In this document: one piece after another, positions 16,753 to 36,049 of the stretch | How positions within the stretch are numbered: position 1 is the first letter of the stretch | Layout of the letters: each line of letters starts with the position of its first letter | Assembly (NCBI GenBank): GCA_027492975.1 | Contig: JAPUDS010000025.1 | Span: 1 to 50,444, forward strand | Origin: Candidatus Saccharimonadota bacterium | GTDB lineage: Bacteria > Patescibacteriota > Saccharimonadia > Saccharimonadales > Saccharimonadaceae | DNA: 50,444 nt | Direction: 5' to 3' | Notes under the pieces: model-generated | The model's database searches: none | What the model was told of the DNA's origin: nothing | Seen by the model: only the letters and a program-made list of their open reading frames with translations | Position numbers and translations under genes: made by a program

Positions 16753-18735
16753 ATGCTACATATAAAAATAAATAGAAAAATCCTTGTCGCGACCGCTGTT
16801 CTTACAGTAGCTTCTTGTGCCCTGCTACTCTCCCGCGGCGCATCTGCCATGGAGTATATCCTGGAGCAGCAAATCTCCGGTCCGAGCTCCCCGACAGATG
16901 TTTGCCCAAACATCCCTGGCATTCAGACCTCCCTGCCCTCTGGCATGCAGCTTGATGAAAGCGGCAACTGTTATACGCCGTCCATTCCCCCGGTAACGCC
17001 GATCGTCACAGACCTCTGTAACAACCTCCCGGGAATACAAACAAGTCTGCCGAGCGGCTACTACAAAAGCAGCGGCAATTGCTACCCGCAACCCCTAGCG
17101 CCCGCTGAACCTGTTGACGTTTGCTCGAACCTCGAAGAAGTCCAGCTCGCAGTCCCGGACGGCTACTATCTTGACGAGTCAAACAACTGCGTCCAGCTAC
17201 TCGAACCGCTCGATGAATGTCCGAACATCCCCGGTCCGCAGGCAACAATTCCCGGCGGCATGACGCTGCAGGACGGCATGTGTTACACGCCAGAGCTCAG
17301 CACGACAGAGAACGATCCAGACTCGAACTCAACCACGAGCAAAAACGAGAACAGTAAGTCGGCATCACTCCAGAAAGTACCAGGTTTTCTGCAACCACTC
17401 GCGGAGTCGGTCATCACCGCCATACCAGAAAGTGCAAAGGAATGGCTCCGTGAACTTCCTGCGAACACCGCCGAAGTCGTTCCGTACTACGTCTTTCTGA
17501 TCGTTGTTGTCCTCGCACTCATCCCTATCCTCCAAGCAGTTCGCGAAGCGCTGTATGCTCGTCAGATCGGCCTTCTGCTACAACGCGAACGCAGTCTGGC
17601 GGAACAGAAAGATAACTTCGTAACACTCGCTTCGCACTACCTCAGAACACCGATCACACTGATGAGCGGCGGGCTTGATACCGTCGTCGCATCAAATGAA
17701 CTCACTGCCGAACAGGTCAATCCGCTCAAGCTAGAGCTCATGGCGCTTAGTGAAAGAGTCGGTTCGATCCTTCAAGACGTTGATTCAAATGCAGCGCTCC
17801 AGGGCATCAGCGCCCCGCCAGAAGGGCCAGCGAAAAAGTCAGTCTGGCGTTCGGGTTGGTTCTGGGGACCGATCGTCGGCTCCGTTATACTGACGCTCGT
17901 TGCTCATTTCCTGCTCGTCGTCGTCGGCAACAAAGAGATCGGTGTGACCCATACGTTCTTTCACTTCGTCGTCGCCGCTGTCGCCTTCCTCGTCCTCTAC
18001 CTCGGTGTTCGCAATGCGCACCTCAAAAGCCGCCTGCGCGCTGAAAACCAACTGCTTGTCGAGCACGAGAAAACCATCGACGAGGCCCGAAACAAGTTTA
18101 TCTCAGAAACCACTGTTGCGCTCGAAGAGCCCCTCGAACGGATCAACGGCCAGCGCACCATCCTCCAAGAAGCATCGTCGGCACACTTTTTCGACGAAGG
18201 GTATGCGCGTATCGAATCTATCCTCCAGAAATTCCTGTTGCTTAGCCAGGTACAAGCTGGCGCCGACCGCGACTTAGAAGCTATAGATGTTCACGAAGCC
18301 ATCGACAATCTCATCGTGACCTATGCTGGCCCCATCTCCGAAAAACGTCTCACCGTCACAAACGCGACATCACCTACCTTCATCAAACAAAACCGGCTGT
18401 TGTTCAACTTTGTCCTCAGTTCGCTTATCGACAATGCGATAAAATTCAACCAAGAAGGCGGCACTATAGAGATCAGTATAGAGCCGGACAGTAAAATGTT
18501 GCTGATAAAAATTACCGACAATGGTATCGGCATAAGCAGTGAGAAACTAAGCCAGCTTTTCAAGCCGTTTTCGAGAACCACTTCAGCGGTCGAGTTCAAC
18601 TACGAAGGACTTGGGTTTAGTCTCTTTCTCGACAAGATTATCATGGATTACACGGGTGGCGATATCGGCGCAGAGTCAACCGAAAACGAAGGAACTCAGC
18701 TGTTTATCTCGAGTCCTGCCGTGAAAGGCGCGTAG
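16753..18735 (+). CDS. Membrane sensor histidine kinase with extracellular Cys repeats and two dimerisation helices
   Basis: In order: a signal/membrane segment (10-32); four extracellular repeats of about 35 residues, each with two Cys and a pattern like CPNIPGIQTSLPSGM...NCY (50-180); a Ser/Asn-rich linker; a membrane segment (244-263); a HisKA-type helix with ASHYLRTPIT, phospho-accepting His295; two more membrane segments (370-391, 402-420); a second HisKA-like helix (FISETTVALEEPL, 449-461) where the His position is Val455; and a HATPase_c domain with N box LIDNAIKF (Asn561), DNGIG and GLGFSLF. No response regulator gene lies nearby, so the partner is unknown. The gene is convergent with the DUF2207 gene. 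Confidence 0.85.
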   Translation: MLHIKINRKILVATAVLTVASCALLLSRGASAMEYILEQQISGPSSPTDVCPNIPGIQTSLPSGMQLDESGNCYTPSIPPVTPIVTDLCNNLPGIQTSLPSGYYKSSGNCYPQPLAPAEPVDVCSNLEEVQLAVPDGYYLDESNNCVQLLEPLDECPNIPGPQATIPGGMTLQDGMCYTPELSTTENDPDSNSTTSKNENSKSASLQKVPGFLQPLAESVITAIPESAKEWLRELPANTAEVVPYYVFLIVVVLALIPILQAVREALYARQIGLLLQRERSLAEQKDNFVTLASHYLRTPITLMSGGLDTVVASNELTAEQVNPLKLELMALSERVGSILQDVDSNAALQGISAPPEGPAKKSVWRSGWFWGPIVGSVILTLVAHFLLVVVGNKEIGVTHTFFHFVVAAVAFLVLYLGVRNAHLKSRLRAENQLLVEHEKTIDEARNKFISETTVALEEPLERINGQRTILQEASSAHFFDEGYARIESILQKFLLLSQVQAGADRDLEAIDVHEAIDNLIVTYAGPISEKRLTVTNATSPTFIKQNRLLFNFVLSSLIDNAIKFNQEGGTIEISIEPDSKMLLIKITDNGIGISSEKLSQLFKPFSRTTSAVEFNYEGLGFSLFLDKIIMDYTGGDIGAESTENEGTQLFISSPAVKGA

Positions 18736-20517: not shown

Positions 20518-23049
20518 CTATGAGCGGCGCACGACACATGCAACACCAGCGGCCAGCAGACCACCTGCGCCAAACAGTAGAACGAGTACGTTCGTCCCTG
20601 TTTCCGCCAAGCCTCCGTCTGCGAGTACACCGATATACAGCGGATCAACTATGACGCCGTTAGCAAGCCCATCCTCATCGAAATCGCTACCATCTATAAG
20701 GGTATAGGAAATCGTTGTTTGGTTACTAGCGCTTGTTATAACAACCTGGTTGGTTATGTCTTGAAGTTCGCCGGAGTCGCTCGCTTTTTTGTAGACACGG
20801 AGGCTCGAAACATCACTGTAGTACGTACCGAGCGTGATGACTGCCCCGCTTGAGCCGCCGCTAGTTGCGCAGTTGATCTTGAAAGCTATACCTCCAAGAA
20901 GATCGATACCTGTCGGAAGAGTTAACCCTGCGGTGCTCAGTGATTGCACGCTATCAGAGTCCAGCTCGTAACAAGTCATAGAGGTAACCGACAGTGAAGA
21001 GTTAGTGATGGCTTGTTCGGTACTTGCTTGCTTGGAAGAGTCTAGGGTCGAGAGAAGAACGGTATCAGTAGCTGGTCCTTCGGTGGAAGCGAGGTAGATA
21101 TGGCCGCCGTCAACACCCGCGGCTAGTTTCGAGCCATCAGCAGAGCTAGTGATAGCACCCCAACGGTATAGGCCGGCGGTAGTTTGTTCGGTCCAGGTGA
21201 GACCCGAGTCAGTGGAAGTGTAGATGTAGCCAAAATTATTACTGTTTGATGTTGCTGCCGCTAGTTTAGTACCGTCGGCGCTAGAAGCGATATCTCGCCA
21301 GGCATGTGAACCGGCGGCAGTGCGTTCGGTCCAGGTTGCGCCGGAGTTAGTAGAAGTGTAGATACGGCTAGTGTCCGCCACGGCTAGCTTGGTGCCATCA
21401 GTTGAGCTGGTGATGGCGTACCAGTTGCGCGAGCCGGCGCCAGTTCGCTCAGTCCAGGTAACACCAGAGTCGGAGGAGGTGTAGATATATCCACCATACA
21501 CACCCGCGGCTAGCTTGCTGCCATCGGCAGAACTAGTGATAGAGTACCAGTTGCGTAAGCCAGCAGCGGTTTGTTCAGTCCAGGTGGCGCCAGAGTCGGT
21601 CGAGGTGTAGATATAACTGCCCCATCCGGCTGCGGCGAGTTTGGTGCCGTCAGCACTAGAAGCAGCAGTCCGCCAGTAACGCGAGCCGGCGGCAGTACGT
21701 TCGGTCCAGGTTGCGCCTGAGTCGATCGAGGTGTAGATGTAGCCACTCTCAGCTCCCGCAATAAGTTTGGCACCATCCGAAGAGCTGGTGATGAAACTCC
21801 AGTTACGCGAGCCGGCCGTAGTTTGTTCGGTCCAGGTTGCACCTGAATCTGAGGAGGTATAGATGGAGCCATAAGCCGCAGCTGCTAGTTTTGTGCCATC
21901 ATCAGAGCTAGTGATAGACTGCCAGCGCCGTGAACCCACCACGGTCAACTCGGTCCAGGTGAGACCGGCGTCCGAGGAAGTGTAGATGGAGCCGCTACTT
22001 GCCACCGCGGCTAGTTTAGCGCCGTCAACACTGAAAGCGATAGACTGCCAGTTGCGACTACCCGCAGCGGCTTGATTGGTCCAGCTAATGCCTGAGTCGG
22101 TGGAAGTATAAATAGAGTTCGTAATTGCAGCCAGCTTAGTACCATCAGCATTGGAGGCAATGGAACGCCAGTTGCGTGAGCCAGCGGCGGTTTGCTGAAC
22201 CCAGGTAGAACCAGAGTCTGATGAGGTATAGATATAGCCATTAGAATTCTGACCCACTACTGCGGCGAGTTTCGTACCGTCCGCGGAGCTTGCGATGGAG
22301 CGCCAAGTGCGCAAACCTGCGGCGGTTTGTTGAACCCAGGTAGAACCAGAGTCTGATGAGGTATAGATATAGCCACCATCACCATCACTCCCGTATTGAT
22401 CCACTACTGCTAGCTTAGTACCATCAGCACTGGAGGCGATGGAATTCCACAGATGCTGTGAATCACCGATAGTATGTTCCGTCCAGGTGAGACCGGAGTC
22501 TGAGGAGGTATAGATAGAGCCATACTCTTCCACTGCAGCTAACTTGACACCATCAGCGCTAGAAGCGACGGAATACCATATGTGCCAACCAGTTGTAGTG
22601 CGTGCGGTCCAGGTGAGGCCGGAGTCGGTGGAGGTGTAGATATAGCCGCCGTAAACCGCAGCGGCAAGTTTAGTGCCATCAGCCGAACTAGTGATCGCGT
22701 TCCACTGCCTCACGCCGGCCGAGGGTCGTTCGGTCCAGGTCGCCCCGGAGTCTGAAGACGTATAGATAGAACCAATAGTACCACCACCGCCCACCACAGC
22801 AGCCAGTTTCGTGCCATCAGCTGAGCTCGCTATGGACGCCCAATCCATCCGGTCCCCCGCTAGATTCGTCTCCGCCTTCTCCCACACATAGTCACCAGGT
22901 AATGCATGCGAAAGTGGTAAGTAAGCGGAGCCGATGATAAATCCGATGAGTAGTAGGATAGATGCTAGATAACGGTTGCGTGTGTTTCTAGTGCGTGAAG
23001 CTTTTTGTTTATATCCGGAAGTACTCTGGAAGATACGAAGAATAGACAT
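20518..23049 (-). CDS. Surface protein with 14 BNR/Vps10-like repeats and LAETG sorting tail
   Basis: The 843-residue protein has a basic N-terminus and signal segment (residues 28-50, ending ALPGD), then 14 repeats of 38-48 residues built on W..I(A/T)SS.DGTKLAA ... IYTS(S/T)DSG.TWTE, typical of sialidase/BNR or Vps10-like beta-propeller blades. A Cys-containing domain of about 160 residues follows, then a C-terminal sorting signal: LAETG, a hydrophobic stretch and a final RRS. Fourteen blades would make two seven-bladed propellers (inference). The repeats show no catalytic sialidase residues, so a binding role in surface contact is more likely than enzyme activity. Its promoter and leader resemble those of the BspA-like gene. 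Confidence 0.85.
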   Translation of the reverse strand: MSILRIFQSTSGYKQKASRTRNTRNRYLASILLLIGFIIGSAYLPLSHALPGDYVWEKAETNLAGDRMDWASIASSADGTKLAAVVGGGGTIGSIYTSSDSGATWTERPSAGVRQWNAITSSADGTKLAAAVYGGYIYTSTDSGLTWTARTTTGWHIWYSVASSADGVKLAAVEEYGSIYTSSDSGLTWTEHTIGDSQHLWNSIASSADGTKLAVVDQYGSDGDGGYIYTSSDSGSTWVQQTAAGLRTWRSIASSADGTKLAAVVGQNSNGYIYTSSDSGSTWVQQTAAGSRNWRSIASNADGTKLAAITNSIYTSTDSGISWTNQAAAGSRNWQSIAFSVDGAKLAAVASSGSIYTSSDAGLTWTELTVVGSRRWQSITSSDDGTKLAAAAYGSIYTSSDSGATWTEQTTAGSRNWSFITSSSDGAKLIAGAESGYIYTSIDSGATWTERTAAGSRYWRTAASSADGTKLAAAGWGSYIYTSTDSGATWTEQTAAGLRNWYSITSSADGSKLAAGVYGGYIYTSSDSGVTWTERTGAGSRNWYAITSSTDGTKLAVADTSRIYTSTNSGATWTERTAAGSHAWRDIASSADGTKLAAATSNSNNFGYIYTSTDSGLTWTEQTTAGLYRWGAITSSADGSKLAAGVDGGHIYLASTEGPATDTVLLSTLDSSKQASTEQAITNSSLSVTSMTCYELDSDSVQSLSTAGLTLPTGIDLLGGIAFKINCATSGGSSGAVITLGTYYSDVSSLRVYKKASDSGELQDITNQVVITSASNQTTISYTLIDGSDFDEDGLANGVIVDPLYIGVLADGGLAETGTNVLVLLFGAGGLLAAGVACVVRRS

Positions 23050-34337: not shown

Positions 34338-35414
34338 GTGAAAAAAAGATTCCTCATCACTCTCGGATTTCTCGTTGTTTTGTCGGTACCACTACTTGCG
34401 GTAGTCCCTGTCGCACAAGCGGCATCCTGTAACGGCGTTGAAACGTCCATAGACTTTCACTGTGACGACTACACAACTGACAGTATCAGCTCTATCCTCC
34501 TGTATATTATCAGTTTTATGGCAGTCGGTGTTGGGATAGCTGTTGTTGTTGGTATAATTTTCGGCGGCATCACCTACGCCGCGAGCGATGGCGAAGAGAG
34601 CAAGGCGAAAGAAGGCAAAGAAATCATCGCAAATTCCGTCATCGGGCTCTTCTTGTTTATCTTCCTCTACGCCGGAGCTAATTTCCTCATACCGGGCGGT
34701 GCGTTTAACCTCAACGCAAAACCGCCAGCAGTCGCTAGCTCTTCACCGAGCACAAAAACCGACACTGACACCGACGCCGATACCGACGCCTCTTCTAAAA
34801 CTACTATCCCAAAGTTAAAAAACGTATCAAATTTTCGAGATGCAGGAGCAGCTGGAGGCATAAAAAGCGGCATTCTTTATCGCTCCGGCCTACTTGCAGA
34901 TGCATCTAAAGCGGATAAAGAAGCTCTCGCAAAGTTGTTGGACGGTGGTCTCGTTATAGATCTCCGAACCAGCGATAACAAAAGCAAGAACGGTAAAGAT
35001 CCGAAACTTGAGGGTGTTGCCCATGTAGATATCCCTATCGTCGGCACAACTAACTACACAAAATTTGTAGATGGCAAAGAAGGAGAGAAAGCCAGCGCTG
35101 CATTTGGAAAGGCGCTCAAAGCCATCGCAAACGCAGATGGACCAGTTCTCATCCACTGCACCCACGGCAAAGATCGCACTGGCTGGCTGACTGCCATGGC
35201 AATGTACGCGATCGGCGCGAGCGACAGCCAAGTGATGACTGAGTATATGAAAAGTTCCGGCCAAACAGCAGGTAAAAACGTCACAAAAGACATGCTCAAC
35301 GCCGGACTAAGCGCCGTTAAGAAAAAGTACGGTACCGTTCAGAAATACCTCACCGAAGGACTTGGCTTGACTAGTAGCGATATCGCTGCACTAAAAAAGA
35401 AGTTGGCGGCGTAA
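34338..35414 (+). CDS. VirB2/TrbC-like pilin domain fused to an extracytoplasmic tyrosine phosphatase
   Basis: The 358-residue protein has a signal peptide (1-28, AQA|AS), a short Cys pair (31, 42), then two membrane segments (52-78 and 99-118) separated by the hydrophilic loop SDGEESKAKEGKEIIANS, which is the pattern of VirB2/TrbC pilins common in Patescibacteria. A Thr/Asp-rich linker (134-155) joins it to a Tyr-phosphatase domain with NFRDAG at 165-170, RSG at 182-184, and the P-loop HCTHGKDRTG at 273-282 (Cys274, Arg280), as in PtpB/Y-phosphatase-3 family enzymes. Topology places the phosphatase outside. It starts at a GTG without a clear ribosome-binding site and is followed after 4 bases by another membrane protein gene. 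Confidence 0.82.
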   Translation: MKKRFLITLGFLVVLSVPLLAVVPVAQAASCNGVETSIDFHCDDYTTDSISSILLYIISFMAVGVGIAVVVGIIFGGITYAASDGEESKAKEGKEIIANSVIGLFLFIFLYAGANFLIPGGAFNLNAKPPAVASSSPSTKTDTDTDADTDASSKTTIPKLKNVSNFRDAGAAGGIKSGILYRSGLLADASKADKEALAKLLDGGLVIDLRTSDNKSKNGKDPKLEGVAHVDIPIVGTTNYTKFVDGKEGEKASAAFGKALKAIANADGPVLIHCTHGKDRTGWLTAMAMYAIGASDSQVMTEYMKSSGQTAGKNVTKDMLNAGLSAVKKKYGTVQKYLTEGLGLTSSDIAALKKKLAA

Positions 35415-35418
35415 CGAT

Positions 35419-36021
35419 ATGGAAAACAGTCCTTTTCAGCCTGGAGCACAACAGCAAAACACAACTGACGAATGGTTTCATTCGCTTCCAGGACCAGCCG
35501 TGGAGCCCCCGAAGAAAAAGCCTTTCAAACTCATCGCACTCGTAGTGGCACTTGCGCATCTCGTGGTCAGTATCGCAGCAGCTCTATTTGTCGCTAGCCA
35601 AGGGCCTCGGTGCTTAACGACCGCCGATCTACAAGAATTACTCGGACGAACCGATGTCGATGCTATATCGTCGTCAAGTGATTTCTTCTTTAACTATCAA
35701 GTCGAGTTTACACCCAGCTCAACCAGCTACAACACCGACGCAGAAACGACCGGAGTAGAAATCGTCAAGCAAATCAGTACTTTCTACGAAAATCACCCTA
35801 ACAAATCAATCATTCTCACACTCACGAGCGAATACTTCAACGACAGCGACACCTCTCTTGCCAAACAGCGGATCGAGATCATCCGTGCAGACCTACTCAC
35901 CGCTGGTATCTCGTCTGAGCATATCATCGTTAAAGAGCCTACAACAAACGATCCCGAAAATGACGCTGAAATGGCAACCACTGTCAATATTGCGATCACC
36001 TCGACCGCAACCTGCAAATAA
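35419..36021 (+). CDS. Single-pass membrane protein, possible divergent OmpA/MotB-like domain
   Basis: Not clearly recognised. The 200-residue product has a Pro-rich cytoplasmic N-terminus (1-40), a membrane segment (about 43-64), and an external domain of about 135 residues. Its last part, IVKQISTFYENHPNKSIILTLTSE, SLAKQRIEIIRADLLTAGI and ATTVNIAIT, has the helix-strand order of OmpA/MotB peptidoglycan-binding domains, with an arginine-bearing helix (AKQRIEIIRADL) in the usual place, but the key Asp/Arg pair is not convincing. It shares an operon with the pilin-phosphatase (4-base gap) and ends in a strong terminator. Confidence 0.6.
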   Translation: MENSPFQPGAQQQNTTDEWFHSLPGPAVEPPKKKPFKLIALVVALAHLVVSIAAALFVASQGPRCLTTADLQELLGRTDVDAISSSSDFFFNYQVEFTPSSTSYNTDAETTGVEIVKQISTFYENHPNKSIILTLTSEYFNDSDTSLAKQRIEIIRADLLTAGISSEHIIVKEPTTNDPENDAEMATTVNIAITSTATCK

Positions 36022-36049
36022 AATACTTCCGCCCACTGGCGGAAGTATT
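36022..36049. terminator. Bidirectional terminator between the plus-strand cassette and tsf
   Basis: AATACTTCCGCC (36022-36033), loop CACT, GGCGGAAGTATT (36038-36049): 12-bp perfect stem with T-rich flanks; it closes the convergent cassette and the rpsB-tsf operon. Confidence 0.85.

Follow-up and report, generated by a model that had tools for sequence, protein, structure and literature searches.

The Pilin-Phosphatase Gene and Its Product

The window, that is, the whole stretch of 50,444 nucleotides analysed here from a Candidatus Saccharimonadota bacterium, a tiny organism of parasitic type, carries a gene in which a T4SS pilin module is fused to a PtpB-type phosphatase domain (Table 1), and this fusion was confirmed as real. 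Together with a partner gene it stands as an island on the plus strand, flanked by the minus-strand genes frr and tsf. Two further genes of the window are also recorded: the minus-strand gene at 20518-23049 encodes an 843-aa protein with many 'TSSDSGxTWTE' repeats and an end of the form LAETG-hydrophobic-RRS, probably a sortase-type surface protein, and the plus-strand gene at 16753-18735 encodes a sensor histidine kinase whose part outside the membrane holds repeated 'DVCPNIPGIQTSLPSG' motifs.

Table 1. Features of the pilin-phosphatase cassette (window coordinates).
Feature	Position	Strand	Basis
Pilin-phosphatase fusion gene	34338..35414	+	ORF, GTG start, 358 aa
Predicted signal peptide	34338..34418	+	n-region MKKR, possible cleavage between AQA and A; hydropathy and by eye
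PGG-type T4SS pilin module, residues 29-123	34422..34706	+	PF18895, array-pilin identity, AlphaFold2 helices, conserved columns
Ser/Thr/Asp-rich linker, residues 124-160	34707..34817	+	Sequence; pLDDT <50 in AlphaFold2
Y_phosphatase3 (PtpB-type) domain, residues 161-358	34818..35411	+	Pfam; Foldseek
Catalytic P-loop HCTHGKDRTG (Cys274, Lys278, Asp279, Arg280)	35154..35183	+	Invariance in six aligned fusions
Partner gene: membrane helix 37-59 and OmpA-like outer domain ~91-194	35419..36021	+	AlphaFold2, Foldseek, conserved adjacency
Terminator-like hairpin between cassette and tsf	36022..36049	.	Scored on minus strand; consensus match only

Hydropathy of the fusion protein indicated a signal peptide at about residues 3-31 and membrane segments at about 47-85 and 94-123. 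The AlphaFold2 model, for which an alignment of six fusions was the input, gave helices at 50-81 and 87-117 followed by a confident phosphatase fold. The signal peptide and two membrane segments agree with those reported in an earlier note on this DNA. The pilin hairpin itself was modelled at medium confidence (pLDDT ~58-71), which counts against the explanation that we favour below. The module has a loop DGEESKAKEGKE between its helices, the end motif PGGAF, and two cysteines, Cys31 and Cys42, which lie between the signal peptide and the first helix, are invariant in the six aligned fusions, and would fit a disulphide outside the membrane. The Pfam family T4SS_pilin (PF18895) matched residues 59-109 with 29.7 bits against a cut-off of 26.6, and the NCBIfam mycoplasma ICE pilin family NF045849 gave a sub-threshold match to residues 51-116. 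The Pfam family TrbC/VirB2 (PF04956) had no match to the fusion protein, and therefore the label 'VirB2-like' rests on PF18895; in this respect the pilin likeness claimed in the earlier note is supported. A sequence search for a solved structure of this pilin class found none, the best hit (E 0.083) being an unrelated protein.

The phosphatase half was matched by Y_phosphatase3 (PF13350) over residues 159-357, covering profile positions 2-239 of 240, with 138.1 bits against a cut-off of 22.2, and the top Foldseek match of its fold in the PDB was PtpB (1ywf, E 2e-11). A structure prediction had been suggested as a check, and its outcome was this PtpB-like fold. The motifs HCTHGKDRTG and NFRDAG lie in the ORF translation at exactly the residues previously given, 273-282 and 165-170. 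The P-loop is complete. Cys274 and Arg280 of the CX5R signature are both present and are invariant in the six aligned fusions, as are His273, Gly277, Lys278, Asp279, Thr281 and Gly282 and, outside the loop, Asn165, Arg167, Asp168 and Asp208.

Cleavage of the signal peptide would leave the N-terminus of the pilin outside and its short loop DGEESKAKEGKE inside, with the C-terminus again outside; retention would give a protein of three passes, its C-terminus likewise outside. The phosphatase is thus predicted to lie outside the cell under either outcome, as had been proposed, and this location agrees with the closest phosphatase domains, which ride on secreted or wall-anchored proteins (L126, G235).

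A Two-Gene Cassette at a Common Locus

A first scan of genome contigs with the single fusion protein as query found no relatives. Pilin-phosphatases were found in seven assemblies from at least three genera, at one common locus and with the same OmpA-like partner; besides the window, fusion and partner are carried by G129, G096, G419, G428, G046 and JAUIBD010000007 (locus L124). The cassette is flanked throughout by tsf/rpsB at one end and by recF or frr/uppS at the other, and the partner adjoins every complete fusion cassette examined. Between genera the fusions have diverged to about 40% identity. A fragment of a phosphatase of the same clade lies at a contig end in G042. In G027, which belongs to the window's own genus, the cassette is absent, frr adjoins tsf and PF13350 has no match; the cassette is therefore inessential. 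Recurrence with conserved synteny led us to reject both an assembly artefact and a fusion confined to its own genome. The outcomes that the earlier note had named as counting against it did not appear: pilin similarity was detected, the phosphatase is predicted outside, and the fusion occurs in other assemblies of Saccharibacteria. The two-gene cassette with its OmpA-like partner, the exchange of cargo and the many pilin-headed enzymes of the phylum, described below, are context beyond that note.

A Pfam search with the partner gene gave no significant match. Its predicted outer domain folds like OmpA/MotB/Pal domains (AlphaFold2 and Foldseek; top matches E 6e-6 to 6e-5). The GC content is even, at 48%, across pilin, phosphatase and partner, compared with 50% for the window, and recent foreign DNA was accordingly rejected on composition. 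A phage origin was rejected as well, PHROGs having no match for the fusion or the partner gene.

Relationship of the Pilin Module to the Resident T4SS

The genome's own T4SS cluster (contig G000:C30), near dnaA, encodes VirB4 (P-loop_TraG), a TrsD-like protein, PrgI, an array of six pilins and a putative VirB6-like membrane protein, the last with no profile match. The fusion gene lies outside this cluster, which counts against co-assembly. Residues 23-125 of the fusion are 65% identical to an array pilin of the same genome (L008:9717-10175), and in the pilin tree the window's module is sister to that pilin with support of 100/99. The cassette pilin likewise pairs with the array pilin of its own genome in G046 (100/97) and G374 (96/97), and with weaker support in G419 (91/70). 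A single clade of the eight cassette pilins, which were grouped by locus and not by tree, an earlier quick tree having already been seen, was rejected at a cost of 115 log-likelihood units (p-AU 2e-9). For the pilin half, one vertical inheritance of the whole fusion was rejected on the same test. Since partner and locus are common and the pilin half is lineage-specific, the pilin half has undergone conversion or re-fusion that fits it to the array of its own genome. Such matching could also be neutral, by gene conversion without selection.

The same cluster encodes a 765-aa secreted protein (L265:8098-10395) with Exo_endo_phos, Phage_lysozyme2 and M23 domains, beside VirB4 and PrgI and adjoining a 1004-aa VanY-domain protein. 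Related proteins of ~1,480-1,610 aa bearing an Exo_endo_phos (EEP) domain lie beside VirB4 in G049 and G051 (L254, L255). The domain kinds of the 765-aa enzyme are those found as pilin cargo elsewhere.

Relatives of the Phosphatase Domain

The pilin-borne phosphatases fall in a compact supported clade (98/98), which also holds an actinobacterial secreted phosphatase and a phosphatase from G235. The former, from an Actinomycetales MAG (L126:5704-6567), is the nearest by identity to the window domain (51-53%), and the pairing with it has only moderate support (89/72). Actinobacteria are the usual hosts of Saccharibacteria in culture (PMC10633639), and on these sequence comparisons genes may have been exchanged with them. 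The G235 protein (L264:6279-9071) is a 930-aa secreted protein with Y_phosphatase3, Exo_endo_phos and Big_7 domains and an LPXTG-like end (sub-threshold), a single protein with both kinds of cargo seen at the cassette locus. The occurrence of this clade without a pilin in G235 and L126 counts against the favoured explanation. The phosphatase half mixes with non-pilin carriers, for which four changes are needed, at least two of them forced by starred branches.

Y_phosphatase3 was also observed near the C-terminus of surface-type proteins of 1,600-2,500 aa with Listeria-Bacteroides or Big_2 repeats in the genera g2 and g12 (L089-L101). Among the ORFs fetched, these proteins of about 2,000 aa have no pilin module, and they were rejected as members of the pilin-phosphatase family because their domains are distant.

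Other Enzymes Behind the Pilin Module

G374 has the same locus and partner, but there the pilin is followed by an Exo_endo_phos domain in place of the phosphatase. Elsewhere in the class, the pilin module carries behind it an alpha/beta hydrolase (G149, G135), NAGPA (G135, G482), a phage lysozyme (Phage_lysozyme2; G135), a C39-type peptidase (G289, G365), NlpC/P60- or CHAP-like domains with sub-threshold scores (G115, G089, G482) or, after a Big_2 domain, GH114 (G471). Up to 21 pilin-domain matches per genome occur in one genus. Of 189 distinct ORFs with a pilin domain in the loci fetched, 59 continue for 150 residues or more beyond it; the loci were picked for long frames, so that this proportion is not a frequency. 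Within Saccharimonadales, a single pilin subclass bears nearly all of the C-terminal cargo found.

Several related arrangements were observed. G135 alone has at least five pilin-headed enzymes (L246, L247, L110, L111, L248), with a lysozyme, a C39-like peptidase (by eye), an NlpC-like domain plus hydrolase, NAGPA, and Big_2 plus hydrolase. In other Patescibacteria classes there are giant pilin-headed proteins of 1,100 to >5,200 aa with Ig-like repeats (L313-L324, L331, L332), which often adjoin a second pilin-headed protein of ~650-750 aa. T4SS-array pilins with N-terminal extensions, 250-520 residues before the pilin domain, were also seen (L113-L123, e.g., L113:6362-8221).

Discussion

In this study, the explanation that we favour, by a modest lean, is a surface phosphatase built on a T4SS pilin, which assembles together with the T4SS pilin complex, or docks on it, and acts at host contact. 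The signal peptide would direct the fusion to the membrane, where the two-helix module would sit with its short charged loop inside and its C-terminus outside, as the predicted topology implies, and the flexible linker would hold the PtpB-type phosphatase at the cell's exterior. The module and a pilin of the genome's own array belong to one subclass, 'PGG', and the module would be kept matched to that pilin; on this shared subclass and matching, we infer that the fusion joins the pilin complex as a low-copy 'cargo pilin', and co-assembly with the T4SS is a good inference. The OmpA-like partner may tether the complex to peptidoglycan, and the phosphatase would act at the host-cell contact, where phospholipid head groups, phosphoproteins or phosphorylated envelope components would be its most likely targets.

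The hairpin might instead be a plain membrane anchor, holding an ecto-phosphatase on the membrane of the epibiont itself, unconnected with the T4SS, where the enzyme would scavenge phosphate or nucleosides or trim the cell's own surface. We consider this unlikely, yet it deserves weight: the fusion lies at a locus separate from the T4SS cluster, the same phosphatase clade occurs in G235 on a protein with an LPXTG-like end, the OmpA-like partner suggests an envelope complex, and the giant pilin-headed proteins of other classes, with their Ig-like stalks, suit a plain anchor. Those above 3,000 aa are hard to fit in a pilus, which counts against co-assembly. An anchor, however, has no need to follow the resident T4SS pilin, as the modules of the window, G046, G374 and, with less support, G419 do; nor would it account readily for the concentration of Saccharimonadales cargo on one pilin subclass or for the overlap between cargo kinds and the T4SS cluster's own secreted enzyme. 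Co-assembly is preferred mainly because the pilin tracks its own array and the T4SS-cluster enzyme shares the cargo kinds.

It is improbable that the pilin module serves as a loading tag with which the phosphatase enters the actinobacterial host, either through the T4SS or along with it, in the manner of the cargo-bearing ('evolved') tip proteins of type VI systems. A single carrier domain with modular enzyme cargo, of kinds suited to attacking or remodelling the envelope of a host, and an epibiotic lifestyle with an essential T4SS without known substrates (PMC10633639, PMC12102498) would suit such an injected effector; a membrane-spanning pilin, however, is an awkward transported substrate, and for most cargo kinds (lysozyme, NlpC/P60, NAGPA) the site of action is extracellular. 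A relic or inactive display protein, with a non-catalytic phosphatase serving adhesion, might draw on the divergence between genera and is very hard to reconcile with the invariance of His273, Cys274, Asp279, Arg280, Asp208 and the other invariant residues listed above.

Returning to the cargo pilin, the interest of the fusion is mainly as an entry to a widespread modular class of pilin-headed proteins. In Ca. S. epibionticum, epibiotic growth requires the T4SS pilin arrays (PMC10633639), and the T4SS of Saccharibacteria, its pilin array included, is essential to such growth (PMC10633639, PMC12102498). Published work describes VirB2-like arrays of 2-11 genes and their essentiality, with the T4SS substrates left open (PMC12102498, PMC10633639, PMC12857230). 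The other enzymes on the same module in relatives suggest an unrecognised way to display enzymes towards host cells. More broadly, and with somewhat less than even confidence, Patescibacteria may use the VirB2-like pilin as a general carrier, with cargo pilins displaying or delivering exchangeable enzymes (phosphatases, nucleases, lysozymes, peptidases, esterases and glycosidases) through the T4SS at the epibiont-host contact. If true, this would make them the first enzymes recognised as cargo of the essential T4SS of Patescibacteria. Enzymes on the array's own pilin type are concrete, testable candidates for what the T4SS places at host contact, and the module can serve as a search handle with which pilin-headed enzymes may be listed in any Patescibacteria genome, cultivated ones included. 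In the published open-licence papers searched, we found neither pilin-enzyme fusions nor giant pilin proteins described for Patescibacteria; PF18895 is named in a single paper, and the searched text of PMC12102498 and PMC10633639 holds no mention of enzyme fusions of VirB2-like pilins.

The fusion resembles the T4SS VirB2-like pilins of Patescibacteria (PMC12102498, PMC10633639) in its signal peptide, two-helix hairpin, PF18895 match and 65% identity to its own array pilin. Unlike them it adds an enzyme of ~200 residues, and its gene, next to that of an OmpA-like partner, is not part of the T4SS cluster; at 358 aa and between frr and tsf, it is not a small stand-alone pilin of a T4SS cluster. 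With PtpB of M. tuberculosis (1ywf) and a phosphatase of C. difficile (8dhi/8dhj), it shares the fold and the P-loop HCxxGKDRTG at ~20% structural-alignment identity, whereas those are separate soluble enzymes and its own domain is pilin-borne and compact (~195 residues). The closest phosphatase domain found, that of the Actinomycetales MAG, is 51% identical over residues 160-357, but follows a signal peptide and another N-terminal region, with no pilin module. Evolved VgrG proteins of type VI systems are enzyme-bearing tip or tube proteins of a secretion system. Their machine and carrier fold are unrelated to the pilin fusion, and the likeness is an analogy only, in that both place modular enzyme cargo on a structural component of a secretion system.
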